In this document: positions 6,016 to 29,484 of the stretch, one piece after another
How the letters are laid out: each line of letters starts with the position of its first letter
How positions within the stretch are numbered: the stretch's first letter is position 1
Assembly (NCBI GenBank): GCA_025558075.1
Contig: JAHLKF010000006.1
Coordinates: forward strand, 62,001 to 126,000
Origin: Gaertneriomyces semiglobifer
Lineage: Eukaryota; Chytridiomycota; Chytridiomycetes; Spizellomycetales; Spizellomycetaceae
Direction of reading: 5' to 3'
Length of the DNA stretch: 64,000 bases
Made by a program: the position numbers and the translations under genes
Notes under the pieces: model-generated
Told to the model about the DNA's origin: nothing
Databases searched by the model: none
The model's input: only the letters and a program-made list of their open reading frames with translations

Positions 6016-6069
6016 TCACAGTCCATAACCCCGGAGTATCCGGATACTCCGGGGTTATGGACTGTGACA
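6014..6069. repeat. 56-bp perfect palindrome at the left PLV/gypsy junction
   Basis: Two 28-bp arms are perfectly complementary with no spacer, centred between 6041 and 6042 (TATCCGGATA). The outer 12 bases of the arm, TGGACTGTGACA, also occur once at the right junction as the complement at 29473-29484. The palindrome lies between gypsy RT sequence and the first TIR bases. It may be a hairpin-derived junction product of integration, or a sequencing/assembly fold-back. Confidence 0.9.
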
Positions 6070-6070
6070 A

Positions 6071-6262
6071 TGGACGAATTAGTGGTATCTAGTTCGTCCA
6101 TGTTTTCTTAGTAAAAGTGGACGGATTAGGAGCATTGGTTTCCATGGACGGATTAGCCGCGTGGACAAATTTGTGAGCGTTGGTTTCCGTGGACGGATTA
6201 GACGCGTGGACGGATTAAGCGCGTTGGTTTCCATGGACGCATTAGGAAACGGACGAACTAAA
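6071..6262. repeat. Subterminal repeat cluster in the TIR
   Basis: Variants of TGGACGGATTAG recur about seven times over 190 bp, separated by GCGTTGGTTTCC and GACGCGTGGAC-type spacers. The same cluster is present inverted at about 29270-29470. Clustered short repeats just inside element ends are typical binding sites for an integrase/transposase or a replication-initiation protein. The role is inferred from position. Confidence 0.75.
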
Positions 6263-6390
6263 GACGCGCTGTTATGGATAACGCCCTAAGATGGCTCAAA
6301 CGGGTGAAACGGGTGCAGTGTTCCAGAGAAGGTCATTTTTCCGATGAACACATAACTGTGACACCATTCGATCTGAAGATGATGTAATGG

Positions 6391-7356
6391 ATGCGGATGT
6401 TCAAAACGTATATAAAGGCTGCTCAAATGGCTCAAACGGGTGAAACGGGTGCAGTGTTCCTGAAAAGGTCTTTCCTGACACAGAAATCCATGCCTTCGTA
6501 CGCAATTAGTGAAGGACTTGATGCTTGCTGGAAGGAGTTACTTCAGCTTGTTGATCTATTCGTTGAGGAGCTTGCAGAAGAAGGTAGCATATGGAATGAT
6601 GAAGCCCAAGTTATCAAAAAGTTGCATCACATTCGTACGGAGCGTGTGGAAAACCAACTCAACATGCTAAGCGTATTCAAAGAGGAGTTCGATCAGCTGT
6701 ATTGCCACAATGAACAATGGTGTAGTCTTGATCATGTCATTTCATGTTTGAGTGATCTCAGGTACTCTTTGGAACAGGCACAAAGATACTTTGATAACGA
6801 TATCGATTTGGATGATGTAGAGCAAGGCGTGGTTACGCCTGAGGTGGATGTTTGCACAACATCTAAGCGGGATTTAGGCCAGTCTACAAGACAACGAAGG
6901 GGATGGCGACGCTCTGCAGACGTGATTGAGCATGTCGTTGCTCAGGAGGTAATGCGTTTGATGTTGGACTGCGGATTCAAAAAACACTTCTACAAGCCAG
7001 GCTTCTTCGAGATGCAACACAATGTTATTACCTACGTTAAGCGTTTCATGAAACAAGACCTCGGTAGTGATATCACCGATTCCAAGTTCGAGAAGATCTT
7101 TGTACAACTCCTATCAAACTATGGCTTTCAACAGAAACGACAGAACATGTGCAAACACTGTCACAAGCCTAGAGCCATCGGGTGTTGTGACAAGTACAGC
7201 ACCAATGAGAGGAGCGAACGCTATATTATTCTCAACTGGTGCTTCACAAAATCAGTGCGAGACACACCTGCATACCAAGCTCTTGAATTCAAAGGGGGAG
7301 TGGTGCCTCATCAGCTTAAGATTACTACAAACTTTCAATGTTCTGGGATAATATGA
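6391..7356 (+). CDS. TIR-encoded protein, left copy, unknown function
   Basis: A 321-aa protein encoded wholly within the TIR, so the element carries two copies. ATG occurs at 6391, but a second in-frame ATG at 6427 begins MAQTGETGAVF. That segment is duplicated upstream at 6291 with its own ATG, so 6427 may be the real start. The N-terminal half looks helical and acidic. The C-terminal part has a Cys cluster (CKHCHKPRAIGCCDKY, residues about 261-276), likely metal-binding. The cell role is unknown. Its position suggests replication, end recognition or regulation. It differs from the right copy at two residues I could see. Confidence 0.85.
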   Translation: MRMFKTYIKAAQMAQTGETGAVFLKRSFLTQKSMPSYAISEGLDACWKELLQLVDLFVEELAEEGSIWNDEAQVIKKLHHIRTERVENQLNMLSVFKEEFDQLYCHNEQWCSLDHVISCLSDLRYSLEQAQRYFDNDIDLDDVEQGVVTPEVDVCTTSKRDLGQSTRQRRGWRRSADVIEHVVAQEVMRLMLDCGFKKHFYKPGFFEMQHNVITYVKRFMKQDLGSDITDSKFEKIFVQLLSNYGFQQKRQNMCKHCHKPRAIGCCDKYSTNERSERYIILNWCFTKSVRDTPAYQALEFKGGVVPHQLKITTNFQCSGII

Positions 7357-8097
7357 ATGGACTTTGTATTTTTGTCTCAATATGATCTTCTTCGAAATCT
7401 TGCACCCGTTTCACCCGTTCCGCCAGTTCATGGTATATCAATAAGCCGGACCCGGATCACCCGTACTTCCGCGGCGATACTACCTAAAAAGGTTCAAATC
7501 CGTTTCCTTCTTGCTACATCAAGGCTCTTGATGAACCTCTTATTCAAACCTAAGCCGATTTTATGTAGGAGGGAAGCACTCCTTCCCTAAAGACTCCCTA
7601 GCTTCCCTCCTACATAAGCGCCCTCCATAAACTCTTCTCTTCTCTTTTTTAAGTCTTTAGATAGATGGAGGAGGGAAGGTAGGGAAGGTAAAATGAGATT
7701 CTTTTTTACAAATAAAAAACTGTTCGTCAAGATTTTTTTTTTTTATATATTTATAAATTTTTCAATTTTCCTTCCCTACGTTCCCTCCTCCATGCATGGT
7801 GACCCTGTTTTTTGGGAAAATCAGTTTTCCCTTCATCTGGCCTCTCCATACTTTTCGTCTTTTTTCAGGGAAGGAGTGCTTCCCTCCTCCATGCTCTCTA
7901 CATAACCATATATTCTTCATTCTTCCTCTCGACCATCTTCCTGTTGATATGTTTTCGTTTCTATGTTCTGCCACCGCTTAACACCGTTCACTTTCGCGTC
8001 AATCCCGCCCGCGCTAAAACGGTCGGGCTAGCATCGAATACTCATGTTCAAACGCACTTGCATCAGGAATTTCTAAGCTCCGCTACATGTTAATCAA
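7357..8097. other. Inner TIR segment without a recognised gene
   Basis: An AT-rich, polypyrimidine-rich stretch. It contains repeated GGAGGGAAG/CTTCCCTCC blocks near 7565-7610, 7660-7690 and 7770-7890, several able to pair with one another, and a T-run at 7731-7743. A 77-codon ORF begins at 7357 directly after the stop of the TIR gene, but its composition does not look convincing. The TIR ends at 8009. Confidence 0.5.
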
Positions 8098-8610: not shown

Positions 8611-11600
8611 TTACAATGGCGCAATGCGATAGACGATCAGTCGAGATGCTTGCGAACCCGTTATGGCGCCTGAAGCACTTGCAGATATGAAACGAAGTAT
8701 CATTTTGGTATCTGCTTCTAAGACACGGCAAATTGATGAACCTGTTACTCTCTGACCGGCAACCATACTGTGTTTTCTTACATGATAACCATCTTCGTAA
8801 TACATGGTGCTACCTGGAGCCATAAAACCAAAGTAACTGTTGATGCTTCCTGAACCTGATTGATGGCAATCTAGATCGAATTCTACTTTGTAGATTCCCG
8901 GTAACTTGAAGATTATGTCCTGGGAATTTGTTAAACAAGTGATTGTATCGCTCTCCATACCAAAAGAGGGTGTCCATTTACATATCAACTGGTAGGCTGT
9001 GCCGTTTACAGAAAACGCTTGACTGGAATGTAATTGAAACATTCCATACGCTGGACTGGCCAAAGCAACATTGTTGATTTTCACAGCCGGTGCTTCTATG
9101 ATTTTACGTGTTGTATTGGATCCGTAGAACCTCAGTTTCCCAATATGGGCATATGTTGAAGAAATAAGGTTACAGACAATGAATCTAAATACTTTGAATT
9201 TTTTCGTAGTGTAGTTCTTGATGGGTACATACCGATCTACTGAAGTTGAGTTCTGATAGATTGTATATGTCATTGTTCCAGAAGAGATCTCTGTCCAGTT
9301 GCTGCGGTCATCCGATCCACAGATAGTGTAGTTTCGGGGAAACATAGGCATTTCTGGTGTCCTGGCGGCAAACGAAAATGCCGTAAGAGCGATTGGAACT
9401 TCCATCTCTAGTTCCACATACTCTCCCTTGATATTAGAACCATCTACGACAGTGATAACTGTACCTTGATACATATTCTGTTCGCCTCCTGAATAAGTTG
9501 ATGCGGACCAATAAGAGTCGTTGATCTCCAATGAATTTGTGAAAGCCTTCCAGGATGCGGACGTTCCATTCAAGTTACTAGAGGCATTTGCAATATACCC
9601 TCCAGTAGTTGCACTTGTCAACTGTATCTGCGGATATTTGATGACATTGTCAACAATGTCATCCTTGAATTCGACACTGTTGTCAATTGAAAGATCGCCA
9701 CTGATCTTGTTACATACAAGTTCATCTGCAATCACATGACTTGCAGAGACAGCACCCCGATTTTCCATCGACACCGGTGTACCATTGAAAAACAAACGAC
9801 CAACATAGCAATACGATGAATTAAGTCCGCTAACAGATCGTATAATCAACCTGTATATCTTGAATGGCTTTGTTGTCGTTGGTGTCTGTACATTGACTGT
9901 TTGCGATTGACCATTAATCCAAGATGAAATAGTCGATGAAAGAATGTGGATGAAGGTGGATCCATCGTTCGAACTGACTAGAGTGAAATCCTTCACATTT
10001 CTTATATAGGCAGTCCTCCCAGTTATATCAAAGGATGACAAGGCAATGCCAACTGGCAAAAGAATCTGAACCCATTCACCAGCAATGGTTGTCGAATTCA
10101 CAATGGTTGTTTGTGAGCCGGCATACAGACCTGTGGTGACATCGTAACCTGATGTCACCTCTGAATACCATCCTCCACCGGCAGCAAAAACGGCATATGG
10201 TTGATACGTGGATGAGAAGATAGAACTTGCACTCGCAACATAATTTCCATTCCCATATGCTTGGTTTGAGATGACAGTGGAATTTGACGTCATGCTTAGC
10301 GGAGGGAAAGCAGCAACAATATCAGACGTTGTTCCAACTGAAAGCCGTTCAGAGACATCAACAGCACCATGTTCATCCACAACGATACCCTTTTCCCTTT
10401 GACCGAGAAGCCTGAGACCACCGGAGGAGTAGTTCATAATGGTCGCTGTATTTCCCCCTCCAAAAGCAGCACGTGCCTGCGCATTGATGTTTATGTAAAG
10501 ACCCGTCCCTGTACCTGCCCTCATCTGCAATGAAGTACAAGAATTGGAACCGGTGGACGAATTATAAATGTACTGAATATATCCCATATTACTATTCCGT
10601 GTGAGATTCAAGGTACCTCCTAAATTGAGATTTCCTGTTGCAGACAAGGAATCAATACCGGTCAAGACTGGATTCAGTGAAACCGTATTGTTGCTAAATA
10701 GCAAATTGCTTCCATAGGTCACAGATGCTGGAACATTGATTAGATCAGTCGTATAATCGACTTTGTCCTTGTAAGCCAATCCTTTAAGTGCTGTTTTTGT
10801 TTCGTATACGGTTAAATCCGGTTTTCCTGAGACTTCAGTGATCCAAGATACGCTCGATTTTGAAGCGAGGGTGCCCAATGTTGGTTTTGATAGAATGTCA
10901 TTCCAACTCAAAGTGTCCTTGTAAGCAAGAGCCCTGAGGTTGGTTTTGACTTCAAAGGCACCGAGATCTGATCCCAGAGATATTGTGCTCCCTGTTTTGA
11001 CCAACCCTGTTCCAACCGTGATGTAGGAAAGGCTGTCTACGTATGTCTTGGTTGTAAGGTCTGTAAGCTTGTTAATGATATCTGTTCCATTCCAATCCAG
11101 TGTATTCTTGCTCGATAAGGTTCCAAGAGTCGGTCTAGAGGTGATTTCTGTCCAGGCAATGCTGTTTTTCGCTGCCAATGAGCCAAGTGAGGGAAGTCCC
11201 GTTAACTCCGAATAGGGCAAGGTATCTTTGTATCCTAGTGCTTTGATGCTGCTTATTTTGGCAAACGTCGAGAGATCATCGCTCAGGGACAGTGTACTGC
11301 CCGTTTTTACAAGCCCTTGTCCGACAGTGATGTAGTTACATGACTCTACGTAGGCTCTCATGAATGAATCCCAAAGTTCGTATATAATAGCAAGGTTAGG
11401 TACTTGCAACATCGACTCAAGACGGACTCCCTGGTAGCCGCTCTGCAGGTGCCGGTCGTGTGTCAAGAGAACACTAGAATAGTCATCCACCTCTGTTTTG
11501 CGATGCACGATATCTATGTGTCCGTGTGGAACAATTGGCAAATTGTTCTCATCGTACTCGAGAACTGTTCTTTGGACACCATCAACGTCAAGTGTCGGAA

Positions 11601-13737
11601 ATTGGTATCTCTTGCCCCAAGAGTCTCTGAACCAGGTCTGCTCATTCGTACGAACATCGTTACCACCAAAAATAGGTGGAATTGGGTCAAGACAGGGAAA
11701 ATTGTTACCGTCTGTTCGTCCTGTAGTCCTCAAGGTGTCACCCCCAGGAGGTGGTGGAGGCGGATTTGGAGGCAATATTGGAGGATCGACAGGAGGCGCC
11801 GTTTCGCCTGTCTCGGATCCTCCTCCTCCATTGTCTTTTAATATAGAATCATCGGACTTTAGAATTGGATCTACAGGAGCAGTGCCTTTGGATTGTGCCA
11901 TCAGAGGGTTGCTTGCAGTGATCACTGTTGTACCGGTAATTGGATCGCTTGTGACTAGCATGCCCACGCCAATAATATTTCTTACAACAGGTAAAGAAGT
12001 GTAGGCTGTGACCACGCTGTCGAGTCCAGTTATCTGAGCACCCAATGATAGAGCAGTAGCCTTAAGAGTTGCAACATCGCCTTGCATCAGCGCCTGTCCA
12101 ACCTGGATTGCAGATTGAGCAGTTTGGATTGTCCCAAGTAACTCAGTGGTTCCTGACAAATCGGCTGCAAGGTTGATAAGGTCACCCTGCATTTGCTGTT
12201 TTGCTGAGTCCAGATTGTTAATGTTCGACTTGTTAAGATCGATATCATTTGAGAGAAGGTCGCTCTTGGTTTCTTGCTGAGATACACGAGATTCCACAGC
12301 ATCGATTTTGTTATCCAAACGAATGTCTTCATTCTTCAAACTGTTGATCTCATTATCAGTTTCCAGTTTGTTCTGGTCAGTCTTTTCGTTAAGATCCGTC
12401 ACTTTGTCGTCGAGATTGTCAATTTGACTCTGAGGATTCAGCACGGACACTTCATAACTGAAAGGATTCGTTTGGACAACAGTGACGTTGCTACTTGCAG
12501 AAAGAACAGTCTTGCCAATGACTTGGTCGCCTTCTCGTCTAAGAGAGCCTCCATATGTTAACTTGGACGAAATGACATTGTCAGTGATACTGATGGCATC
12601 TCCTGCCACATAAGGATCTACTGTCAACTTGTTATTCATCGCCTTCACCGAAGTGCCGTCCGCGATGGTGGTAACATTGACTTCGAGTTGGTTCGACTCA
12701 TTAATGGAGAGCGTCTCATCGTGATTCACCTTGATCAGTTTCCTCCCACTCGTGACTTCGGAAATATCTATCGCTGAACCGGCTTGGGATTGATATAACT
12801 GGTGTACATACCCAGCAGTGGGTAACTGCCGCGGCTCGGTGATATTGTAGTCGACCGCTTCGGCCTCGAACCTTGGTGCTGTCAGAGTCGATAAGGTTTC
12901 ATTGTAGGTAAAACGATTTGAGGAGTTAAATCCGCTCAAACCCGAATAGTATGGTATCTCATTAAGACCTTTACTTCGAATTTGGAGACGCCCGCCCGTT
13001 TGAGAAAAGTCATTAGAGACGTTGAGTTTAACAAACATAGCGTTACCGATATACTCCTCCATATCCCCAGCAAGGTCGGGGATGTCTATCCAATCACCCA
13101 CTCCAGGAAGAATTTCATCCATCGCTGAGTACACTGATATGGCACCAATGCCTTTGCTCATTTCCTTCTGATCAACTCCCAATTTGCCATCTTTGACAAC
13201 AAGAGGAGAGTCGATGTTCAGTCTAACAACATTGTCAGTGTCTTTAGCAAGAGGCTCTTCAAACGAATCATGAATGACTGATAAATTACCTTCTCCGTCT
13301 ATGTGTAAAGCTGATTCATCCAAGAGAAGAGTTAAGCCGTGCTCATTTAGCGCAAGTGGTGGAGAATCAATTTTTAGTTCGACCACATCCTCCCCCTGTT
13401 GACTACCCTCTTGGACGCTCAAGGGGTATTCTGCCAAGAGATGACGCTGTTTGGAGGCAAGCGCGCCATTCTTCAGTTCCATCGTCTCCTTGTCGATCAA
13501 GAGTGAAAGATCTGCTTCGCCGTCTTCGAGACTGTTTTCAAGGGGCGCCTGCGCGCTAATACTATTAACTAATAGTTCACCATGTTCGGAATGTACATGG
13601 TTGAACTTACCAGTATCAAATCCTTCTATATCAGTGTCACCGTTCCCTTTTAAGGACCCAGTTACGAGTGGCGATAGTAACTTTGTATTATCAAGGACGC
13701 GTAGACCGTTGAATGTTCTAGAGTTGAGCCCTGACAT
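8611..13737 (-). CDS. Giant fibre/tail-fibre-like attachment protein (1708 aa)
   Basis: The largest gene of the PLV. The N-terminal third has beta-rich repeats resembling phage fibre shafts. A coiled coil follows at about residues 435-545 (DNLDDKVTDLNEKTDQ and similar heptads), then a Pro/Gly-rich hinge near 660. Next come degenerate shaft repeats of the type GTLASKxSxxWxEI. Two related discoidin/F5-8-C-like beta-sandwich domains occupy about 1170-1320 and 1380-1530, each ending with a KxYRxxI/KVFRFIV strand and a 'RLFFNG'/'KLRFYGS' strand. A compact C-terminal domain follows that could be C1q/TNF-like. Together these indicate a trimeric adhesin displayed at virion vertices. Fibres of this size are uncommon in PLV-sized genomes. 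The domain names are by inspection. Confidence 0.8.
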   Translation of the reverse strand: MSGLNSRTFNGLRVLDNTKLLSPLVTGSLKGNGDTDIEGFDTGKFNHVHSEHGELLVNSISAQAPLENSLEDGEADLSLLIDKETMELKNGALASKQRHLLAEYPLSVQEGSQQGEDVVELKIDSPPLALNEHGLTLLLDESALHIDGEGNLSVIHDSFEEPLAKDTDNVVRLNIDSPLVVKDGKLGVDQKEMSKGIGAISVYSAMDEILPGVGDWIDIPDLAGDMEEYIGNAMFVKLNVSNDFSQTGGRLQIRSKGLNEIPYYSGLSGFNSSNRFTYNETLSTLTAPRFEAEAVDYNITEPRQLPTAGYVHQLYQSQAGSAIDISEVTSGRKLIKVNHDETLSINESNQLEVNVTTIADGTSVKAMNNKLTVDPYVAGDAISITDNVISSKLTYGGSLRREGDQVIGKTVLSASSNVTVVQTNPFSYEVSVLNPQSQIDNLDDKVTDLNEKTDQNKLETDNEINSLKNEDIRLDNKIDAVESRVSQQETKSDLLSNDIDLNKSNINNLDSAKQQMQGDLINLAADLSGTTELLGTIQTAQSAIQVGQALMQGDVATLKATALSLGAQITGLDSVVTAYTSLPVVRNIIGVGMLVTSDPITGTTVITASNPLMAQSKGTAPVDPILKSDDSILKDNGGGGSETGETAPPVDPPILPPNPPPPPPGGDTLRTTGRTDGNNFPCLDPIPPIFGGNDVRTNEQTWFRDSWGKRYQFPTLDVDGVQRTVLEYDENNLPIVPHGHIDIVHRKTEVDDYSSVLLTHDRHLQSGYQGVRLESMLQVPNLAIIYELWDSFMRAYVESCNYITVGQGLVKTGSTLSLSDDLSTFAKISSIKALGYKDTLPYSELTGLPSLGSLAAKNSIAWTEITSRPTLGTLSSKNTLDWNGTDIINKLTDLTTKTYVDSLSYITVGTGLVKTGSTISLGSDLGAFEVKTNLRALAYKDTLSWNDILSKPTLGTLASKSSVSWITEVSGKPDLTVYETKTALKGLAYKDKVDYTTDLINVPASVTYGSNLLFSNNTVSLNPVLTGIDSLSATGNLNLGGTLNLTRNSNMGYIQYIYNSSTGSNSCTSLQMRAGTGTGLYININAQARAAFGGGNTATIMNYSSGGLRLLGQREKGIVVDEHGAVDVSERLSVGTTSDIVAAFPPLSMTSNSTVISNQAYGNGNYVASASSIFSSTYQPYAVFAAGGGWYSEVTSGYDVTTGLYAGSQTTIVNSTTIAGEWVQILLPVGIALSSFDITGRTAYIRNVKDFTLVSSNDGSTFIHILSSTISSWINGQSQTVNVQTPTTTKPFKIYRLIIRSVSGLNSSYCYVGRLFFNGTPVSMENRGAVSASHVIADELVCNKISGDLSIDNSVEFKDDIVDNVIKYPQIQLTSATTGGYIANASSNLNGTSASWKAFTNSLEINDSYWSASTYSGGEQNMYQGTVITVVDGSNIKGEYVELEMEVPIALTAFSFAARTPEMPMFPRNYTICGSDDRSNWTEISSGTMTYTIYQNSTSVDRYVPIKNYTTKKFKVFRFIVCNLISSTYAHIGKLRFYGSNTTRKIIEAPAVKINNVALASPAYGMFQLHSSQAFSVNGTAYQLICKWTPSFGMESDTITCLTNSQDIIFKLPGIYKVEFDLDCHQSGSGSINSYFGFMAPGSTMYYEDGYHVRKHSMVAGQRVTGSSICRVLEADTKMILRFISASASGAITGSQASRLIVYRIAPL

Positions 13738-14493: not shown

Positions 14494-15744
14494 TCAGTGT
14501 GCGTTTTCGTAGTCATAGATTGCCTCCGATGCATTTTCCAAGTTTTGAACAGGCTCCCATGTGCTGTCTGATCTAGGAAAGCCTCGCCATAACACAAGAT
14601 ACTCAGTGACTGGAGACTGGCCGCGGCCTCGTCGTCTCATTCTTCTGTCAACTATTGACTCGACTACATATTCATCTTCGGACATTTCAGAATCCTCGTC
14701 TTCATTGTCATCAGGCACAACTGTTCCTGATTCGGTTCCTAGAGGAACGAGACGTAATTTGTATGCGGGGTACAAGCCTTGTAGGGTTTCGCCCAGATTT
14801 GTTTTGAGTTTGTAGGCATCCATGTAATTAGGATGCTTGCTAGGAACGGTTCCAATGATCTCGTAAACTTCATCCCCTAAGTAGCCTGTCTTTGCTCGTC
14901 GCCGAATGTCTGTATTTTCCGTTATCAACATGCGAACATAATCACCAATCTTGAATGGTTTTATGGTTTTCCCTTTTCCTGACCCTTGCATACGCTGTGC
15001 CTTTTGTGCGGCATAAGATGTCTCTACATTTGCTTCGATCTGGTTAGGAGTCATCAACTTCTTCCCTGCGCCAAATGAGACTGTAGAGTTAATGTTCTCT
15101 ACAATCTTGGGAAGCGCTTGTGGCCAGTTGCGATCACCGAGTTTGATCGAAGCAAATAACATGCGTTTGACAGTACCATTCATACGTTCCACAATACCGT
15201 TGGATTGTGGAGAGCCGGGTTTTGAATAACGTATAGGGATGTTGTGCATTTGACACCATTGAGTGACATCTGCTTGGTTTTCGCTTCCGTTATCTACCTG
15301 AATATTAGTAATTGCGGCGCCAGATTGACGAATCTCTTCGAGGAAATCAGCAACAGCTGCTGCTGTGTTAGAACGTAGGGCTTTGCTGTAGAGACGTTTG
15401 GTAAGAATGTCCACGCCGTTCACAATGTAGCGGTATCTATTGAAATTCACTGAAGAGAGATTAATTGTATCTATCTGCAAAGAGCCTGGTTTTGAACTGA
15501 GAATTGGTCGTATCGAGCCTTTTGATGTAGGAGGACGAGTAATCTTCTGCCAGATCGTCTGTTTCGTAAGCCAATCAAAAATTGCTCGCCTACTAGCCTC
15601 TGAGTCCGGATACTTGCTCTTGTACAGGTGATACAAACGGTCTCTTCCCAAAATCGCCTTCTCTTCATAGAAAAGTTGCTTTAAGTGCCTTTCATCTTCA
15701 TCACTGAGTTCTTTAAAATATTCTGTGGTGTCCGACGTGTCCAT
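14494..15744 (-). CDS. DDE (retroviral/Polinton-type) integrase with C-terminal chromodomain
   Basis: 416 aa. The catalytic triad is visible as Asp at about 92 (LQIDTINLSS), Asp at about 151 (IQVDNGSEN) and Glu at about 186 (SNGIVERMNG), the D,D-35-E spacing of rve integrases. An SH3-like region lies around 260-335. A chromodomain follows at about 358-412 (EYVVESIVDRR, then YLVLWRGFPRSDSTWEP). Such integrases insert Polinton-type DNA and usually generate short target duplications; the chromodomain binds methylated histone H3 tails in chromoviruses. Here it would explain insertion into a retroelement nest. No N-terminal HHCC zinc motif is evident; the N-terminus may be HTH-like. Confidence 0.93.
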   Translation of the reverse strand: MDTSDTTEYFKELSDEDERHLKQLFYEEKAILGRDRLYHLYKSKYPDSEASRRAIFDWLTKQTIWQKITRPPTSKGSIRPILSSKPGSLQIDTINLSSVNFNRYRYIVNGVDILTKRLYSKALRSNTAAAVADFLEEIRQSGAAITNIQVDNGSENQADVTQWCQMHNIPIRYSKPGSPQSNGIVERMNGTVKRMLFASIKLGDRNWPQALPKIVENINSTVSFGAGKKLMTPNQIEANVETSYAAQKAQRMQGSGKGKTIKPFKIGDYVRMLITENTDIRRRAKTGYLGDEVYEIIGTVPSKHPNYMDAYKLKTNLGETLQGLYPAYKLRLVPLGTESGTVVPDDNEDEDSEMSEDEYVVESIVDRRMRRRGRGQSPVTEYLVLWRGFPRSDSTWEPVQNLENASEAIYDYENAH

Positions 15745-15801: not shown

Positions 15802-15869
15802 CTAAGTTCGGCTTCGCCGAACCGCTCGCGTAGCGAGCAAAGCGTGCTAGGCGCCGCAAGGCGGCTACC
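15802..15869 (+). repeat. 68-bp perfect inverted repeat, left copy
   Basis: This is an exact reverse complement of 18096-18163. It contains three small hairpins in a row: GTTCGGCTTCGCCGAAC, GCTCGCGTAGCGAGC and GCCGCAAGGCGGC. The two copies bracket a 2.2-kb module with the 102-aa, Pro/Ser/Thr-rich and 58-aa genes. Confidence 0.93.
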
Positions 15870-15890: not shown

Positions 15891-16199
15891 TTAATTGCCG
15901 GCGTCAGCACCGTATCGAGCCATATGTTCAAGGAATTTGTCTCCGCCTTTATGCACATCATCTATCTTCTTCAAGCCTAGACCGGAAAGGTCTGCTCCTT
16001 TCTTCGCTACATCCTTGACCTTTCTACCAAATAGGTCATTCTGCTGGACTCCTTCATTCGTATACTGTATGAAGCGATTCGCCTTTCCAGCAACACCTCG
16101 AGCAGTATTAAACATACTCCTTGCCTTTGTGATGTTCGAGGGCATCTTTTGAAAGAAATTGCTGACACGCGCTTTCGCCTTTCCAAAGAATCCTGCCAT
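15891..16199 (-). CDS. Basic 102-aa protein, possible minor virion protein
   Basis: The N-terminus is amphipathic and Lys/Phe-rich (MAGFFGKAKARVSNFFQK), followed by Gly/Ala/Lys-rich sequence ending in GADAGN. Small basic amphipathic proteins of this kind in adenoviruses and PLVs are internal cement or membrane-lytic virion proteins, but I cannot identify the family. It is transcribed divergently from the Pro/Ser/Thr-rich gene and sits inside the 68-bp inverted-repeat module. Confidence 0.6.
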   Translation of the reverse strand: MAGFFGKAKARVSNFFQKMPSNITKARSMFNTARGVAGKANRFIQYTNEGVQQNDLFGRKVKDVAKKGADLSGLGLKKIDDVHKGGDKFLEHMARYGADAGN

Positions 16200-18212: not shown

Positions 18213-18749
18213 ATGACTGAAGTGATTGAAAACAAGTCAGTAGATGATACAGTAACTGCTCCAGTACAAGAGGTTGCTACAGAAGCGTCCGTTAGTGTGC
18301 CAGACGCATCGAGTTCAATCGGTGCCCCTAAAGAGGAAAAGAAGAAACGTCCTATGACAGAAAAACAGAAGGCTGCTCTACAGAAAGCGCAGGCTGCTCG
18401 TGGTCAGCGCTTAAGAGATCTTGCTAAGACACAAAAAGAACAAGATGAGCAAAAACGGATTCAAGAAGCCAAGGAATTACTTCAAAAACACAAGGACCGC
18501 ATAAAAATGGAGCGTGAAGCAAAGAAACTTGCAAAGGAATCCAATCCCAGCAAGGATAAAGAGAAGAAGAAGGAGCCTAAGAAGCCGAAGAAATCTGTGT
18601 CCCCAGCCGTTCAAGTTGAAGTACCTTTGCCTAGCAAACTCATAGGACGGATTGAAGAGGAGGAGCCACGACCCAGCCATGTCTTTGCTGTATTCGACGA
18701 TGATAACCCGTATAATGTCATTTTCGGAAGACGACATTCCCGGCACTGA
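18213..18749 (+). CDS. Lysine-rich coiled-coil protein
   Basis: 178 aa. An acidic/Ser-Thr-Val N-terminus (1-45) is followed by a long charged helix (about 46-130) containing PMTEKQKAALQKAQAARGQR, a motif recurring in uncharacterised proteins of large and polinton-like DNA viruses. The C-terminus carries FAVFDDDNPYNVIFGRRHS. The basic helix suggests DNA or capsid-interior binding. It ends 68 bp before the major capsid gene on the same strand. Confidence 0.7.
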   Translation: MTEVIENKSVDDTVTAPVQEVATEASVSVPDASSSIGAPKEEKKKRPMTEKQKAALQKAQAARGQRLRDLAKTQKEQDEQKRIQEAKELLQKHKDRIKMEREAKKLAKESNPSKDKEKKKEPKKPKKSVSPAVQVEVPLPSKLIGRIEEEEPRPSHVFAVFDDDNPYNVIFGRRHSRH

Positions 18750-18810: not shown

Positions 18811-18820
18811 TATAAATATG
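18811..18820 (+). promoter_or_regulatory. TATAAAT-ATG element at the capsid gene start
   Basis: TATAAAT abuts the MCP ATG directly. The integrase start is similar on the minus strand (ACTAAATATAAATGG). A TATA-like block touching the ATG resembles the TAAATG late promoters of nucleocytoplasmic DNA viruses rather than a cellular TATA box. Confidence 0.35.
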
Positions 18821-20059
18821 AGTATTGCCCATCAAGTAAGTGGAAGTGTGCATCCTACTATTCCAAGCAATTGGATCTATGCATCGAAGCAGTTTAGCAC
18901 TCATTCCGATGCGATGAATGAGAATATCGTCATTTACCGACCCATGAAGGAAACCTTTTCCTCCAAGACTACGGGCGATGTTATCAAGATAGTTGTCGAC
19001 TCGCCCTCGTCATTTCTCAGACCTCAGAGATCCTACCTGTCTGGAAAAATAACTTGGTATAATGCAGACAATACCGTCAACTCAACAGTAAATAATGCTG
19101 ATGCCGGCGCCATGATGCACTTTCTAGATGCTACCGTGAGAGTCTCAGGGAAGATCGCCGAATCAATAGACAACTATGGAGAACATGTTTCCCAACAATA
19201 TGCTTTTGAATCCGCTGCTAGACGCAAGTACCTTTCTCATCTTGAAGGAGTAGGTAGGGATGACATCTTCCATACCAATGGATCGTTTACTTTCCGGCAT
19301 CACGTCGAATTTGGTGTCATGCAGCCAACAAACGGCAATCCGATGCCTCTGTGTCTACTTCCCGGTCAAGCGATCGAGTTGTCCTTCACTCTGAACAGTC
19401 CTCATATGGCAGCAACCAATGCTGCAACCGGTGCGTACTTTACTGTGAGTGACATTAGATATGTAGCCCAACTCGTTACACCCCATGCTGATTTCCTCGC
19501 ATCTGCATGGGAAGGTATCCGTAAAGGTCATTATCTTGAGTACGACTACGTCGCCACAACACAGACTTTCAACAATGGAAATGGCGCAACGATCAACCAG
19601 TTTATCATTCCTCTGGCCAATTCTCGCGTGGTGGGCTTAACTCATCGCTTTAGAGACGACAGTAAGTATCAGGCAAACACTGGAGATAAATCTCTCATAT
19701 ATGACACTGCAAACCTGAAATCTTGGAGATATCAGTTAGGTGGATGGAGGTTGCTTTTAACCGAGGATTTTAAGATCGAGGATGCTATGATTTCCGGTGC
19801 ATTGAGTGTCAACGACAATGCCTCTTATGCAGCCGAAGATGTAGACCTAGACAATTACATGACAAAGAAGTTTACCTTGAGATGCTCATTCCAATCGAGT
19901 GACAAAGATGTGGCGTCTGCATTGAACCTCATCGGTACTGACGGAAACCTTCGATTCGTCTGTGAGTTTTCTGCTCCACTGCCAACTACTACCGCATTGA
20001 TTACCAGTGTCTTCACACACAGGACACTCCTAATCGGCGCGACCGTGGATATCATTTAA
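18818..20059 (+). CDS. Major capsid protein, double-jelly-roll type
   Basis: 413 aa. The sequence has PLV/virophage MCP features: beta-rich throughout, an early strand-turn SYLSGKITWYNAD, a central MPLCLLPGQAIELSFTL, then in the second jelly roll WRYQLGGWRLLL followed by an Asn/Asp-rich loop, and a hydrophobic C-terminus (HRTLLIGATVDII). The length matches PLV-type MCPs, shorter than many virophage and mimivirus ones. It lies in the capsid/packaging block with the penton-like and ATPase genes. The fold is inferred from sequence pattern; structure prediction would settle it. Confidence 0.85.
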   Translation: MSIAHQVSGSVHPTIPSNWIYASKQFSTHSDAMNENIVIYRPMKETFSSKTTGDVIKIVVDSPSSFLRPQRSYLSGKITWYNADNTVNSTVNNADAGAMMHFLDATVRVSGKIAESIDNYGEHVSQQYAFESAARRKYLSHLEGVGRDDIFHTNGSFTFRHHVEFGVMQPTNGNPMPLCLLPGQAIELSFTLNSPHMAATNAATGAYFTVSDIRYVAQLVTPHADFLASAWEGIRKGHYLEYDYVATTQTFNNGNGATINQFIIPLANSRVVGLTHRFRDDSKYQANTGDKSLIYDTANLKSWRYQLGGWRLLLTEDFKIEDAMISGALSVNDNASYAAEDVDLDNYMTKKFTLRCSFQSSDKDVASALNLIGTDGNLRFVCEFSAPLPTTTALITSVFTHRTLLIGATVDII

Positions 20060-20282
20060 ATTTCTCTACATTGATATCAAGTGAAAATGTTTAAAGCTGA
20101 AAAATTGTCTTTCCATGAAATCACAAATTAAGTAGATCCGCCGGATCATCCAAGACGTCGAGGATCACTACGATAGGTGCGTTTGTGACGATTCGATTCA
20201 GCGTTGCGCTGTCGAGCAATTGTAGATCAATGGATGACAAACTTTGCTCGCCGGTCTCGAAGAACCGGTCACTTGGGTTTGT

Positions 20283-20870
20283 CTATGTCACGACATCAGA
20301 AAAATTGTCAGGTGTTATACAGGCAAGAACGTTGATCCCCGAGTTGATGCCAGCAATGTACTGCAGCCTTCCTCCTGCGTAGAGTGTTCTGCTCGTCAAC
20401 AACAACGGTTGACTAGCACTGAGATTGATCGGGAGTGGCATGGTGAATGACTTGCCGTAACCAGTCTCTGACTCTTTACTAGATCCAATCTGAAGGTATA
20501 ACGTTGTTCCCCTGGTCGATTCGAGTATTTTAAAGTCTTTGGTGCCGGTTGTGTAGATCCTCAACCGTTTGGACACATCATCATACGAGGCGGCATACGA
20601 TTGCGTTCCTACCTTCTCCATCGCGGTCTTGATCGCATCCGTTATGGAGACAACAGTGTAGGAGCCTGGAACGATCTTTGCGATCCTCGGCGCTACATCA
20701 CCTTGTTCCGCAAATGCAATTTGGTTGTTAGTCTCATTTGTACTGTCCCAATTTTGAAAGAACGATACACTTACGATACGAAATGCATACATGGTTTGTG
20801 GAGGCCAGATCTGGAAAACGGCATTATCTGTGCCTAGAACCGCCGTATTAAGAATGTACTCTCTCAACAT
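20283..20870 (-). CDS. Penton-like minor capsid protein
   Basis: 195 aa, beta-rich. It contains the pattern KIVPGSYTVVSITDAIKTAM, of the 'PG-Y-hydrophobic-DAI' type seen in minor capsid and penton proteins of polinton-like viruses and adintoviruses. It sits between the MCP and the packaging ATPase but on the opposite strand, and diverges from the ATPase gene with a 37-bp gap. A single jelly roll is expected for a penton. Identification is by position and motif only. Confidence 0.6.
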   Translation of the reverse strand: MLREYILNTAVLGTDNAVFQIWPPQTMYAFRIVSVSFFQNWDSTNETNNQIAFAEQGDVAPRIAKIVPGSYTVVSITDAIKTAMEKVGTQSYAASYDDVSKRLRIYTTGTKDFKILESTRGTTLYLQIGSSKESETGYGKSFTMPLPINLSASQPLLLTSRTLYAGGRLQYIAGINSGINVLACITPDNFSDVVT

Positions 20871-20907: not shown

Positions 20908-21621
20908 ATGGAGATTAAGAAGGTCAAAATACCCAAGGAGCATGACATCAAGATCAAGGATACGACTCCAGATGGATATCCAAAGAAATTCTTTGTCATG
21001 TCGATTATCGGTTCGTCTAGAAGCGGCAAGACAACATGTCAAGTGAATCTCATTGAAAAGTTAGCCTCTTCATATTCTGCAGTGGCCATTTTCACCCCAA
21101 GCATATCTGATCCTATCTGGACATCCCTCAAACGCAAGGACAACATCTACATCAGTCCAACCATTTCGAACAAAGTCCTCTACGATCTATTCGAGAGACA
21201 AAAAGGTCTTTATATCGCGGACAAGAAAACCAATCATCTCTTGATCGTGATAGACGATTACGGCCTCCTAGCAAAGCAAAGTGGTAAGGACGTGAAAAAG
21301 AGTTCAATTGAGGAGATCTCGAGTGGTATCAAGGAAATGCTGGATCTCTTGTATTCACGAGGGCGCCATTTCGGAATCTCGCTCATGTGTAGTTTCCATG
21401 ATACCTTGCAGTGTACACCTCTACAACGAGTAAATGCAACACACTACATATTGTATAGACTGAACAGCAAACAATACGAAAAGATTGCACCAGAGTTACG
21501 ATGTCATCTCACAGAGAAAGAGTTTGTCTCCATGGCTGAAGAGGCGACATCGCAACCTTACAAATTTCTCTATGTGGATCTACGTGCCCATAATAATGAG
21601 GATGTGTTCAAGATTGCCTGA
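20908..21621 (+). CDS. A32/FtsK-HerA-type DNA-packaging ATPase
   Basis: 237 aa. Walker A is GSSRSGKTT at residues 35-43. Walker B is LLIVIDDYG, with acidic residues at 116-117. A conserved SRGRHFGISLMCSF segment follows at about 150, as in vaccinia A32-type ATPases (a sensor/arginine region). The enzyme pumps genome DNA into preformed capsids. It is one of the core genes shared by PLVs, virophages and Polintons and is complete here. The next gene begins 33 bp downstream. Confidence 0.92.
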   Translation: MEIKKVKIPKEHDIKIKDTTPDGYPKKFFVMSIIGSSRSGKTTCQVNLIEKLASSYSAVAIFTPSISDPIWTSLKRKDNIYISPTISNKVLYDLFERQKGLYIADKKTNHLLIVIDDYGLLAKQSGKDVKKSSIEEISSGIKEMLDLLYSRGRHFGISLMCSFHDTLQCTPLQRVNATHYILYRLNSKQYEKIAPELRCHLTEKEFVSMAEEATSQPYKFLYVDLRAHNNEDVFKIA

Positions 21622-21653: not shown

Positions 21654-22118
21654 ATGGCTTCACAATTACCACGAGAAGTACAGGAACAGATCTTGGGTCA
21701 TATTGATGGTGCCTATCTTTTGACGCCATTCTTAAGAAGGAAGCACTTTAAAGAAATGCGCGACAATGTTGAATGGCAACTTAGGTTCCCCACATTGTTA
21801 ACAGAGGCTTCTCATGACGGAGTGCATGTGTCTCTTCTACGCGCGACAAACAATCAACATGTCCATCAGTGGATAACTATCGAGGGCGACGGTGAAGCAT
21901 ATGCGAATACGATTGAACGATACTACCGGCTCGGTCATAATGAGGATTTCGAAATATTCCTTTTTAATACACCACAACGTGGTACAGAGATAACTTCTCC
22001 ACATATATGTGATGTTATAATGGATTGTTGTCATAGAGGAATTTCGCTTTACACAAAAGTGTACACCCGATGGACATTTGAAGATTGCAGAGTTCAGTCA
22101 ACTATCATTGTTATCTGA
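21654..22118 (+). CDS. 154-aa protein with F-box-like N-terminus
   Basis: The N-terminus reads LPREVQEQILGHIDGAYLL, which resembles an F-box or the F-box-like motif found with ankyrin repeats in large DNA viruses. The remainder (VHQWITIEGDGEAYANTIE and CDVIMDCCHRGISLYTK) could be one or two degenerate ankyrin-like repeats. It follows the packaging ATPase on the same strand. If the F-box is real it would link to host SCF ubiquitin ligase; this is a weak call. Confidence 0.5.
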   Translation: MASQLPREVQEQILGHIDGAYLLTPFLRRKHFKEMRDNVEWQLRFPTLLTEASHDGVHVSLLRATNNQHVHQWITIEGDGEAYANTIERYYRLGHNEDFEIFLFNTPQRGTEITSPHICDVIMDCCHRGISLYTKVYTRWTFEDCRVQSTIIVI

Positions 22119-22182: not shown

Positions 22183-22286
22183 CCATTGAAGACAGAAGGA
22201 AACAAGGATTTAAATGACCTCCTTCAACTCCCGAGATAGCCGCCTAATGCGCAGGACGCGGATTATCGAGAAAAAGGTTTACCTTT

Positions 22287-24698: not shown

Positions 24699-27626
24699 AT
24701 GACAACGCAGAAACAGCCAACCTTTTGCCAAACGTACCTGTCTAAACTCGGTTCGGACAACATAGGTAGAAAGAATTACCAGAAAGATGGAGTGGACGTT
24801 ACCCTCACCTTGGACAAGCAAACGAAGAAGGTTCTCCGACGATATGAGTATCGCTTCTCTGACGGGAGTGTCAAATGTTGGGAAATTGATGAGAGCATGA
24901 ATCTGATTCCTGTTGTGAAGGTAAAGAAGAACGCTCCTGATGTGACAACTCCCATATCGTCGTTATCATCTTCGGACAACAAAGATCAAGTGAAGCACGA
25001 GATGGTTGAAGTGAAGCCAAGCCAACAAACAGCGTGCCCGAAATATACATTTCGCAACGGTTTCTTCGGAAATGACAACATTCTAGAATGGACACTTGAA
25101 GACTTCAAGAAACTTCGTGGCAAGTATCCATACCTATGTGAATATCTTGGTACATGTCAGTCGCGTGTCGTCCCGTTTGTTGATTTTGACATGACGTGGG
25201 ACTCAAAAGATCAACTGCCTGACGAACACACTCAGAAAGCAATCTTTGACTTCACTACTACTACATTCAAATCTCTCTGTTTAAATGAAGATATTGAGGT
25301 TATTTCTGCATACCGTAAAGCAGGCTTTGCTTCAAAGGTTCAGAAAACTATTGAAGTCGGCAAGTGGAAGGTATCACTTAGACTGTGGATGCGTGGTGTG
25401 CACACCACCATGGAGAAACTCAAATCTCTTTTACATGGCTACATCCCCGATATGACTTCTGCTCCTGATATAATGAAAGAATATAATTTCGGGAAATCGT
25501 TTTTTGATGTGTCGGTGTATGAGAAGAACCGCAAGATGTCCTTTGTCGGCGCAAGAAAATCTCCTAAGGACCCTCGCGTACTAGAAAGGTGGGAATGTGA
25601 TGCACCTCTCGAAGACTTTATCATTCAACGTGTCTTAGATACGGATCAAGAAGTCAAGTGGAGGAGTATCGAGAAATTTACGGCTAAGTCGGTCAGCAGC
25701 CCCAAAAAGCAAACGAAAGTTGTTTGCTCGGGCAACAGTGACATAGTGCTCGATGGTATCTTGTCTTTGTTCCCTGATGAATACTTCCGACGGGATCTCG
25801 CAGAGCCAAAAGAAGGTGATCATGCAATGACTGTCTTTGTAAAAAGCAATCATTGCCTCATTGCACAAGGTGTTCACACTGAATCGGTTAACAAGATGTA
25901 TTTTGTTGTTACACGGCGAAACATCATATACAAATGCTCTAACTGCGGCGATGAAATTGTCAAGCACCATGACAATAGCAAGTTGAAAGCGTTTTTTACA
26001 AAGAAGGAAAAGACCCGTTCTGGAAATATCAAAGACGATCTTGAGTTGCTCAGTAAGAAGATTGACTTAGTTAAGCGCGGTACACAACTCAGCATTGCCG
26101 AGTATTATCAGTTAGTTGGTCAAAAGATGATGTGGAGTCAGGAACTGGATCTAGTAGCGATCTTAAACTCGAACAACGTTTGGGAATTGGCAGATAGACC
26201 GGGCAAAACGGCCTTTGCCCTTGTCCTGCACAAAACGGTGAAAGGTGATATTGAAGAGTCCGATCTTCTTAACGAAATGATCCGGCGCGATACAGGGGAG
26301 ATATTGCTAAAAGCGGATGAAATGTACAAAGAACCGCACAATGAAGACGATAAGGCCGCCTTCATCGAGTCGGAAGTGAAGGAATCCCAAAGACTCAATC
26401 ATAAAGCCATAAAAAATGTCATTCAACAACTAGAAACCGAGCACCCTTCTGAATGTATTGCCAACTTCATCAAGAAGAAGAATCGTCAGCATAGCATGCT
26501 TGATCTCTTCATATCGCGTCCTGAGTTACTAGCATTTGAAGACGGAGTGTATAACTTACACACCAACACATTTCAAGTAGGAATCAAACCTACTGATTAT
26601 GTCTTTATGACCACTGGCTACAACTTTCCACAAGGTGAAGTAGATTATCAAACCGAGATGGAGATTGATGCTTTTCTCAACTCAATCTTCGAAAACCGTG
26701 AGATGAAAGAGTTTGACTTGGATCTTACTGCCCAGGCAATGTATGGGCGTCGTGTTCAAGAGATTATGACTGTGGAATATGGTTCAGGCCGAGGTGGGAA
26801 GGGAACTAAAGCCTGCCTTACAAACTCTGTATTCGGTGATTACTTCTATGAGATGGAACCCGAAACATTGTGTGAGCCTATCTCATGTACAAAACCGAAG
26901 CCAGATCTCTGGAACTTACGCGGTAAGCGTTACATCACCTCCAGTGAACCACAAGAGAATTCAACCTTCTGTTCCGCTACTTTGAAAAAATTGACAGGAG
27001 GAGATCGTATCGATGTTCGAACCTTACATGGGAAGCCCGCATCATTTAGGATAACTGGATTGTTGAACATGCAGACAAATTCCTGTTTGAAAACCGATGT
27101 TTTCAAAGTGGCTGAGAATGAACGAATATACTACAAGTCATGTCCGTTTACTTATACGGACACACCGCAGTCAGAAAATGAACGCAAGATTGACAGAACA
27201 TTAAAAGGCAAATTCCAGACGCCGTTATATCGGGACACCTTTCTGTTGATGCTACTGAAGCGATGGAAAGATCAACTATCAAGCAATATGAACATTGCCA
27301 TTCCGCCAAGTGTTCTGGAATTCACCCGAGCCATTCAAGCGGAAACAAATATTAAGTGTGGAACATGGTTTTATAAGCATTTTGTTATATTGAGGAATGC
27401 CACGGTGCCAGTTGATGATAGACTCTCCAGTGAGTCTATATACCTTATGTGGAAAGGGGATGAGCATGTGACATCAGAAGAAAAACGAAGTTACCCGAGC
27501 ATCAAGAAGTTCATAACTGATTTGCGTCTACTAGGCGGGATTGACGCGAAAGTGAACGGTGTTAAGCGGTGGCAGAACATAGAAACGAAAACATATCAAC
27601 AGGAAGATGGTCGAGAGGAAGAATGA
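24699..27626 (+). CDS. Primase-SF3 helicase replication protein
   Basis: 975 aa. The N-terminal region has an archaeo-eukaryotic-primase-like motif PFVDFDMTW (Asp 162 and Asp 164) and a downstream SFVGARKSP. A Cys pair CSNCG lies around residue 410. The C-terminal superfamily 3 helicase has Walker A GSGRGGKGT (Lys about 701), the B/B' region RGKRYITSSEPQE (about 741-753) and the sensor-like LLNMQTNS. Such fusions start and unwind viral DNA in virophages, PLVs and nucleocytoplasmic viruses. The last about 31 codons and the stop lie inside the right TIR, so the coding sequence crosses the TIR boundary at 27534. Confidence 0.9.
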   Translation: MTTQKQPTFCQTYLSKLGSDNIGRKNYQKDGVDVTLTLDKQTKKVLRRYEYRFSDGSVKCWEIDESMNLIPVVKVKKNAPDVTTPISSLSSSDNKDQVKHEMVEVKPSQQTACPKYTFRNGFFGNDNILEWTLEDFKKLRGKYPYLCEYLGTCQSRVVPFVDFDMTWDSKDQLPDEHTQKAIFDFTTTTFKSLCLNEDIEVISAYRKAGFASKVQKTIEVGKWKVSLRLWMRGVHTTMEKLKSLLHGYIPDMTSAPDIMKEYNFGKSFFDVSVYEKNRKMSFVGARKSPKDPRVLERWECDAPLEDFIIQRVLDTDQEVKWRSIEKFTAKSVSSPKKQTKVVCSGNSDIVLDGILSLFPDEYFRRDLAEPKEGDHAMTVFVKSNHCLIAQGVHTESVNKMYFVVTRRNIIYKCSNCGDEIVKHHDNSKLKAFFTKKEKTRSGNIKDDLELLSKKIDLVKRGTQLSIAEYYQLVGQKMMWSQELDLVAILNSNNVWELADRPGKTAFALVLHKTVKGDIEESDLLNEMIRRDTGEILLKADEMYKEPHNEDDKAAFIESEVKESQRLNHKAIKNVIQQLETEHPSECIANFIKKKNRQHSMLDLFISRPELLAFEDGVYNLHTNTFQVGIKPTDYVFMTTGYNFPQGEVDYQTEMEIDAFLNSIFENREMKEFDLDLTAQAMYGRRVQEIMTVEYGSGRGGKGTKACLTNSVFGDYFYEMEPETLCEPISCTKPKPDLWNLRGKRYITSSEPQENSTFCSATLKKLTGGDRIDVRTLHGKPASFRITGLLNMQTNSCLKTDVFKVAENERIYYKSCPFTYTDTPQSENERKIDRTLKGKFQTPLYRDTFLLMLLKRWKDQLSSNMNIAIPPSVLEFTRAIQAETNIKCGTWFYKHFVILRNATVPVDDRLSSESIYLMWKGDEHVTSEEKRSYPSIKKFITDLRLLGGIDAKVNGVKRWQNIETKTYQQEDGREEE

Positions 27627-29484
27627 AGAATATATGGTTATGTAGAGAGCATGGAGGAGGGAAGCACTCCTTCCCTGAAAAAAGACGAAAAGTATGGAGA
27701 GGCCAGATGAAGGGAAAACTGATTTTCCCAAAAAACAGGGTCACCATGCATGGAGGAGGGAACGTAGGGAAGGAAAATTGAAAAATTTATAAATATATAA
27801 AAAAAAAAATCTTGACGAACAGTTTTTTATTTGTAAAACAGAATCTCATTTTACCTTCCCTACCTTCCCTCCTCCATCTATCTAAAGACTTAAAAAAGAG
27901 AAGAGAAGAGTTTATGGAGGGCGCTTATGTAGGAGGGAAGCTAGGGAGTCTTTAGGGAAGGAGTGCTTCCCTCCTACATAAAATCGGCTTAGGTTTGAAT
28001 AAGAGGTTCATCAAGAGCCTTGATGTAGCAAGAAGGAAACGGATTTGAACCTTTTTAGGTAGTATCGCCGCGGAAGTACAGGTGATCCGGGTCCGGCTTA
28101 TTGATATACCATGAACTGGCGGAACGGGTGAAACGGGTGCAAGATTTCGAAGAAGATCATATTGAGACAAAAATACAAAGTCCATTCATATTATCCCAGA
28201 ACATTGAAAGTTTGTAGTAATCTTAAGCTGATGAGGCACCACTCCCCCTTTGAATTCAAGAGCTTGGTATGCAGGTGTGTCTCGCACTGATTTTGTGAAG
28301 CACCAGTTGAGAATAATATAGCGTTCGCTCCTCTCATTGATGCTGTACTTGTCACAACAGCCGATGGCTCTAGGCTTGTGACAGTGTTTGCACATGTTCT
28401 GTCGTTTCTGTTGAAAGCCATAGTTTGATAGGAGTTGTACAAAGATCTTCTCGAACTTGGAATCGGTGATATCACTACCGAGGTCTTGTTTCATGAAACG
28501 CTTAACGTAGGTAATAACATTGTGTTGCATCTCGAAGAAGCCTGGCTTGTAGAAGTGTTTTTTGAATCCGCAGTCCAACATCAAACGCATTACCTCCTGA
28601 GCAACGACATGCTCAATCACGTCTGCAGAGCGTCGCCATCCCCTTTGTTGTCTTGTAGACTGGCCTAAATCCCGCTTAGATGTTGTGCAAACATCCACCT
28701 CAGGCGTAACCACGCCTTGCTCTACATCATCCAAATCGATATCGTTATCAAAGTATCTTTGTGCCTGTTCCAAAGAGTACCTGAGATCACTCAAACATGA
28801 AATGACATGATCAAGACTACACCATTGTTCATTGTGGCAATACAGCTGATCGAACTCCTCTTTGAATACGCTTAGCATGTTGAGTTGGTTTTCCACACGC
28901 TCCGTACGAATGTGATGCAACTTTTTGATAACTTGGGCTTCATCATTCCATATGCTACCTTCTTCTGCAAGCTCCTCAACGAATAGATCAACAAGCTGAA
29001 GTAACTCCTTCCAGCAAGCATCAAGTCCTTCACTAATTGCGTACGAAGGCATGGATTTCTGTGTCAGGAAAGACCTTTTCAGGAACACTGCACCCGTTTC
29101 ACCCGTTTGAGCCATTTGAGCAGCCTTTATATACGTTTTGAACATCCGCATCCATTACATCATCTTCAGATCGAATGGTGTCACAGTTATGTGTTCATCG
29201 GAAAAATGACCTTCTCTGGAACACTGCACCCGTTTCACCCGTTTGAGCCATCTTAGGGCGTTATCCATAACAGCGCGTCTTTAGTTCGTCCGTTTCCTAA
29301 TCCGTCCATGGAAACCAACGCGCTTAATCCGTCCACGCGTCTAATCCGTCCACGGAAACCAACGCTCACAAATTTGTCCACGCGTCTAATCCGTCCATGG
29401 AAACCAATGCTCCTAATCCGTCCACTTTTACTAAGAAAACATGGACGAACTAGATACCACTAATTCGTCCATTGTCACAGTCCA
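27534..29484 (-). repeat. Right terminal inverted repeat of the PLV
   Basis: Inverted copy of 6058-8009. It includes the C-terminus of the primase-helicase, the polypyrimidine/AT-rich segment at 27627-28185 (no gene seen), the second copy of the TIR gene, and the subterminal TGGACGGATTAG cluster. Confidence 0.95.
28186..29151 (-). CDS. TIR-encoded protein, right copy
   Basis: 321 aa, the inverted duplicate of the left-TIR gene, with the same start ambiguity (the alternative ATG is 12 codons in) and the same Cys cluster. Two residue differences are visible: Gln for Arg in TRQQRGW and Ile for Thr in KYSINERS. Both copies are intact, so neither is decaying. Confidence 0.85.
   Translation of the reverse strand: MRMFKTYIKAAQMAQTGETGAVFLKRSFLTQKSMPSYAISEGLDACWKELLQLVDLFVEELAEEGSIWNDEAQVIKKLHHIRTERVENQLNMLSVFKEEFDQLYCHNEQWCSLDHVISCLSDLRYSLEQAQRYFDNDIDLDDVEQGVVTPEVDVCTTSKRDLGQSTRQQRGWRRSADVIEHVVAQEVMRLMLDCGFKKHFYKPGFFEMQHNVITYVKRFMKQDLGSDITDSKFEKIFVQLLSNYGFQQKRQNMCKHCHKPRAIGCCDKYSINERSERYIILNWCFTKSVRDTPAYQALEFKGGVVPHQLKITTNFQCSGII

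Follow-up and report, generated by a model that had tools for sequence, protein, structure and literature searches.

A probably defective polinton-like provirus with palindromic hairpin ends in the genome of a chytrid fungus

We describe a polinton-like virus (PLV) integrated in the nuclear genome of Gaertneriomyces semiglobifer, a soil fungus of the order Spizellomycetales, and give this reading, taken jointly with the full mechanism proposed below, a probability of roughly three in four. The element is real and is probably a defective provirus. It combines the gene set and predicted protein folds of a PLV with a link to its host and with an insertion site that occurs empty elsewhere in the genome. 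Its palindromic hairpin ends, and similar hairpins standing alone in the genome, are the main new features with respect to known PLVs. To our knowledge, capsid-building DNA viruses are scarcely known from fungi.

Results

Position of the element in the genome

The window, the whole stretch of 64,000 nucleotides that was analysed, covers bases 62001-126000 of contig 6, in a genome of 20.86 Mb (about 20.9 Mb) in 66 contigs. The element lies between two terminal inverted repeats (TIRs) of 1,952 and 1,951 bases and interrupts the pol gene of a Ty3/gypsy retrotransposon, on a contig of 1.08 Mb.

6058..8009, plus strand: left TIR, from repeat comparison
27534..29484, minus strand: right TIR, from repeat comparison
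29475..30839, minus strand: gypsy pol, upstream part, the last codons being element DNA
3098..5914, minus strand: gypsy pol, downstream part (end of RT, RNase H, integrase, chromodomain), from family matches

The G+C content per kilobase was 0.41 to 0.47 within the element, except for one kilobase at 0.52, and 0.52 to 0.58 in the 6 kb to its left. The TIRs differ at 8 of about 1,952 positions, in line with the claim of the first-pass annotation that the provirus is young, but because TIRs may be homogenised during replication, their similarity dates the insertion only loosely. Repeated Ty1/copia pol genes were also seen in the window (768-1070 and 34009-44523), with a stretch in their translation that by eye resembles a chromodomain.

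Gene content

Twelve distinct open reading frames (ORFs) of at least 100 amino acids were taken as element genes and scanned against Pfam, the 321-aa ORF, present in each repeat, being one of the twelve. The scan omitted three smaller ORFs that overlap the fibre and primase genes.

6391..7356, plus strand: ORF of 321 aa without significant family match, in the left TIR; it recurs at 28186-29151, minus strand
8611..13737, minus strand: fibre-like protein, 1,708 aa, with F5/8-type C (galactose-binding-like) domains (PF00754, E = 4.7e-10)
14494..15744, minus strand: rve-type DDE integrase (D92, D151, E186) carrying a chromodomain at its C terminus (PF00665 and PF00385, both above cut-off)
15802..15869, minus strand: repeat of 68 bp, in which three small hairpins were recognised by eye, with an inverted copy at 18096-18163
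15891..16199, minus strand: capsid-block protein of 102 aa, matching no family
16268..17902, plus strand: 427-aa ORF, ATG at 16619, homology starting at about 16268
18213..18749, plus strand: 178-aa lysine-rich protein of the capsid block, from family scan and relatives
18818..20059, plus strand: major capsid protein (MCP), 413 aa, predicted double jelly roll, from a structure match of the model and homologues
20124..20870, minus strand: penton-like capsid protein, 249 aa in relatives; here an in-frame stop at codon 196 leaves 20283-20870 open
20908..21621, plus strand: A32-type packaging ATPase (PF04665, E = 8.8e-9, 35.6 bits against a cut-off of 22.8)
21654..22118, plus strand: protein of 154 aa that matches no family and is 98% identical in the relative on contig C42
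22507..24216, plus strand: putative tyrosine recombinase (R329, K365, R432, H460 and Y469 invariant)
24699..27626, plus strand: primase/D5-type helicase, 975 aa (PF08706, E = 4.1e-8, above cut-off)

The proposal, made from the window alone, of a PLV in a fungal genome is supported: MCP, penton, A32-type ATPase, D5-type primase-helicase, rve integrase and TIRs occur together in a fungal host. The 413-aa protein, for which a structure prediction had been called for, is modelled as a double jelly roll; PDB sequence searches with the MCP alignment gave no match. The jelly-roll penton (minor capsid) protein expected of a PLV was likewise predicted. Eleven MCP homologues were found, counting the window's own protein, from G. 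semiglobifer, Gaertneriomyces sp. JEL0708, Geranomyces variabilis and Phlyctochytrium arcticum, four of the 11 coming from possibly environmental sources; none bore a Spizellomyces name. No relative could be confirmed in IMG/VR from scans with the MCP, the penton, the ATPase and the primase, such single-protein queries reaching close relatives only.

TIRs and an integration gene, by which PLVs are also recognised, are both present. PDB matches of the integrase were to integrases and HP1-type chromodomains. The similarity of this protein is to retroviral integrases and also to bacterial transposases of the IS481 type (NF033577, E = 3.2e-23, below cut-off). The five residues of the putative recombinase, candidates for the catalytic R-K-[HxxR]-H-Y set, are invariant in three distinct sequences (a fourth row duplicates one), and by eye its box II lacks the H. 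It had no significant profile match in any library scanned, no match in PDB searches with its alignment and no homologue outside the host genome among the best 7,989 candidates. The primase-helicase also matched TIGR01613 (E = 1.4e-20, below cut-off) and the PDB primase C962R (E = 6e-4), and PHROGs returned a primase and, weakly, a terminase, but nothing else. Among the 12 ORFs scanned, Pfam gave no match to a DNA polymerase B family, the primase-helicase being present instead, nor to a protease family such as the cysteine protease of virophages (Lavidaviridae-like), although viral proteases may diverge beyond Pfam.

Open frames, as had been claimed for all genes save one with an unclear start, were seen for the MCP, the ATPase, the integrase and the 102-aa and 178-aa proteins, but the penton frame is not open. 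Compared with relatives on contigs C21, C42 and C49, the penton stops at codon 196 of 249, is 94 to 96% identical over its full length, and its homology resumes past the stop. A stop codon in an element of this kind can stem from faulty assembly (Bellas 2023, PMC10120064, in the text available), and this one may have done so. The 427-aa ORF has homology to relatives of 530 to 539 aa that reaches upstream to about 16268 in an open frame lacking an ATG (the alignment of this extension is full to C49, first line to C42 and partial to C21). Both genes have intact-looking relatives. The truncated penton frame, the absent start codon and an incomplete hairpin at the right end weaken the case for an element that is apparently complete and possibly mobilisable, with the same reservation about assembly errors for the stop.

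Hairpin ends

6014..6069, no strand: left terminal hairpin, TGTCACAGTCCA...TGGACTGTGACA, with identical letters on both strands
29474..29484, plus strand: remaining arm of the right hairpin, GTCACAGTCCA, whose last four bases, TCCA, are also in the empty site

The inner 54 bases of the left hairpin (6015-6068) form a perfect palindrome outside the TIR proper. The right end keeps only the first hairpin arm, and both ends of the element carry GTCACAGTCCA in one orientation. The relative on C21 has a 64-bp hairpin at both ends, with AACGG outside each TGTCAC/GTGACA end, that is, a 5-bp duplication. In a relic on C28, one alignment at 87% covers the window hairpin together with about 90 bases of the TIR, indicating that the hairpin belongs to the element. 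This relic of a close relative (locus L047, C28:251329-251459) has a hairpin nearly identical to that of the window, and similarity decays past the TIR part. Hairpins of provirus ends and the relic are near-perfect (54/54 paired bases in the window; 54/54, 28/28, 62/64, 64/64 and 52/54 in the others), which is what copying of one arm from its partner would produce. The nine lone hairpins that were measured are mostly less perfect (40/63 to 44/44).

Lone hairpins elsewhere in the genome

The sequence GTCACAGTCCA occurs 48 times in the genome, against 8 times for its reversed control, and the pattern CAGTCCA-N5-35-TGGACTG gave 17 palindromes against 2 control sites. We read 32 loci, 29 covering GTCACAGTCCA sites outside the window and 3 more from the palindrome pattern. 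Under the limits set, 23 of them contained a hairpin and nine did not; five of the 23 were provirus ends or the relic, leaving 18 lone hairpins. Duplications of 5 bp flanked the lone hairpins exactly in 9/18 and at four of five bases in one, 9/18 having no exact duplication, while mismatched flank pairs at the same offset, an offset picked after the first 14 sites had been viewed, matched fully in 1 of 306 cases.

These hairpins look as if they had been inserted by the same machinery as the provirus. Tentatively, and at somewhat below even odds, we propose that the viral telomere is a palindromic hairpin doubling as the integrase recognition end, so that each hairpin is a minimal transposable unit and a lone hairpin flanked by a 5-bp duplication is the footprint of a virus that integrated or was lost. 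If so, they would be the equivalent of solo LTRs for a DNA virus, past infections could be counted, and old insertions in other chytrid genomes could be tallied simply. Of the competing explanations, the strongest, though still improbable, is that the lone palindromes are a separate miniature-transposon family, or recombination scars, resembling viral ends only incidentally. By eye they fall into families by inner sequence (GATAGTATC, GAAAGTAT and CGAACATT) that are absent from the provirus ends inspected. Against a separate origin, the plan of a 12-bp end plus hairpin is common to the proviruses, and the duplications have the same length as at C21.

Proposed mechanism

In our preferred reading, the MCP, penton and fibre would build an icosahedral virion, filled by the A32 ATPase, and the primase-helicase with a host polymerase would copy a linear genome with palindromic hairpin ends. 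The rve integrase would recognise TGTCACAGTCCA, which each hairpin bears at its outer edge, and insert the DNA with 5-bp target duplications, its chromodomain steering insertion to retrotransposon-rich chromatin. Because each hairpin has two recognition edges, a lone hairpin might be inserted by itself or left behind after provirus loss, giving rise to the lone palindromes. Our confidence is reduced because the duplication offset was chosen post hoc and because single-armed ends occur at two places. Nine of ten gypsy matches, one of which holds this element, lay within 30 kb of a viral cluster, where at most 10% of the genome is so placed; these ten matches are not independent. Ty3/gypsy elements near viral insertions have been noted before (Bellas 2023, PMC10120064, in the text available). 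Hairpin ends would offer a testable model of end maintenance and integration in PLVs that lack a protein-primed polymerase.

Comparison with known systems

A PLV in the chytrid Spizellomyces punctatus was described by Bellas and Sommaruga in 2021 (PMC7805220), who also suggested that there are fungal dsDNA viruses; the view that intact PLVs are much less described in fungi is fair, with this earlier chytrid PLV set against it. Like our element, that one is integrated in a chytrid of the Spizellomycetales and has a double jelly-roll MCP. In the text available, one fungal element is reported there, whereas here 25 of 30 viral clusters in one genome carry an MCP; terminal and lone hairpins distinguish our case further, as does the lack of a chitinase match among the 12 ORFs scanned. 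The same source gives target duplications of 5 to 7 bp at three integrated elements. The protist survey (Bellas 2023, PMC10120064), from which its available text says fungi were excluded, describes PLV insertions of generally 15 to 30 kb, often with TIRs, a GC difference and Ty3/gypsy elements nearby, as found here. Polintons/Mavericks share the rve integrase, TIRs, double jelly-roll MCP and A32 ATPase, and our 5-bp duplications fall in the 5 to 6 bp range given for mavirus and Mavericks (PMC8547959, in the text available); unlike Polintons/Mavericks in the strict sense, our element gave no match to a DNA polymerase B family among the 12 ORFs scanned. Among the matches listed from open-licence PMC papers, judged by title and the opening lines of the abstract, which are no proof of absence, none reported hairpin-ended PLVs, lone hairpins or PLVs in Gaertneriomyces.

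Mid-GC EMALEs and Mavirus-type virophages have a like mix of rve integrase, tyrosine recombinase (putative here) and long primase-helicase, as well as short target duplications and the penton fold (PMC8547959, in the text available). Together with the best Foldseek matches of our penton model, which were the mavirus and Sputnik pentons, this gives some weight to the idea that the element, instead of being self-sufficient, parasitises a giant virus as virophages do, an idea we judge improbable, slightly more so than a separate palindrome family. The NCLDV capsid family PF04451 had no match in the genome, but the control gave none either.

Relatives in the genome and mosaic history

Searches of the genome with the element's own proteins returned 37 MCP, 36 ATPase, 45 integrase, 8 recombinase and 8 primase matches. 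With a linking distance of 9 kb, 37 MCP, 34 ATPase, 27 integrase, 8 recombinase and 7 primase matches (leaving out two weak ATPase rows, one primase row overlapping a TIR, and 18 integrase rows, two being small pieces and the others weak or retroelement-like) formed 30 viral clusters belonging to several lineages. Of these, one on C6 and one on C21 contain two elements each. Seven of the 25 clusters with an MCP (C2, C19, C30, C34, C39, C47 and C59) are near-identical copies near contig ends, and the true number of loci may therefore be below 25. Even if these copies are one locus counted repeatedly, MCP genes in 25 of 30 clusters suggest a standing relationship between virus and chytrid, not one stray insertion.

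MCP identity to the window was 92 to 96% on C49, C21 and C42, and 48 to 61% or 25 to 30% in other copies. The three close relatives share the window's gene order, and their capsid block is 88 to 94% identical in DNA and 83 to 98% in amino acids. This conservation, and the absence of internal stops from 27/37 MCP and 35/36 ATPase matches, speak against a virion-less transposon that merely retains capsid genes. Such a transposon, which we consider unlikely, would fit the stop codons in the MCP or integrase of several genomic copies and the fact that no virion, transcript or free genome was seen in this sequence-only analysis.

DNA matches to C21, C42 and C49 span, with gaps, 8036-14612 (74 to 93%) and 15891 to 21615-22240 (88 to 94%). 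The integrase core (14613-15890, except for the 68-bp repeat in C42), recombinase, primase and TIR are unmatched. Integrase identity to these relatives is only 62 to 65%; apart from self-matches, recombinase identity within the genome is at most 32%, and primase identity, its own TIR also set aside, at most 64% over 107 residues. Because the capsid DNA is shared with relatives and the integrase, recombinase, primase and TIR are not, the replication-integration and capsid parts have different histories, as reported for virophages (PMC8547959, in the text available).

The MCP lies 6,066 bases from the contig end in six contigs (C2, C19, C30, C34, C39 and C47), allowing for match start; C59 has a similar copy at a different distance, and its end sequence differs. 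C19, C34 and C47 (last 1,000 bases compared) and C2 (last 80) end at an identical base inside a viral ORF. These shared ends are assembly breaks in repeats. A telomeric location was rejected, the ends of C2, C19, C34 and C47 lying inside an open frame (by eye) and having no telomere repeat.

The insertion site

At the empty site, GGCGTCTCCACCTG, the flanks of the element abut in six gypsy copies, the sequence having been inspected in two: uninserted copies L065 and L071 read ...GGCGTCTCCACCTGAAAT..., and the flanks of L066-L069 abut likewise by alignment coordinates. The filled site reads ...GGCGTC-TGTCACAG... and ...TTGTCACAG-TCCACCTGAAAT.... All target bases are kept, duplication amounting to one shared T at most; the window copy thus lacks a target duplication. 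The empty sites contradict the reading that the element integrated site-specifically at 11 bp belonging to gypsy itself, which was dropped.

Two accounts of this junction were weighed. A two-hairpin element with a GCGTC duplication would yield the window sequence by a single later deletion between two TCCA repeats, removing the right hairpin and one duplication; this requires that TCCA directly follow the supposed duplication GCGTC, a coincidence that counts against it. Since the right end on C20 also has a single arm, single arms could be a regular product. The other account, which we judge quite improbable, credits the window insertion to the tyrosine recombinase instead of the rve integrase: a circular form with a TIR-hairpin-TIR junction would have recombined at GTCACAGTCCA to leave a full hairpin and one arm. 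The like orientation of GTCACAGTCCA at both ends, the recombinase-like gene and the single arm on C20 would suit it, but the flanks in the six gypsy copies abut without GTCACAGTCCA and no target base was lost, and the 5-bp duplications, seen at C21 and beside nine lone palindromes, suggest a DDE enzyme. Contamination or misassembly is very improbable: viral repeats are imperfectly assembled, as the four contigs ending at one base inside copies of another lineage attest, but the window copy interrupts, within a 1.08-Mb contig, a gypsy element that occurs without interruption at other places in the same genome.

Additional observations

A PLV lineage 61% identical in its MCP (C19, C30, C34, C35, C39, C47, C59 and C2) has a second MCP-like gene across the ATPase, 26 to 27% identical to the window MCP, with a stop in five copies and broken in C2, giving two capsid paralogues per element. 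A sequence about 94% similar to the 68-bp repeat lies between viral genes at a different intergenic position in the C42 relative (43633-43702), and the repeat therefore looks mobile within these viruses.
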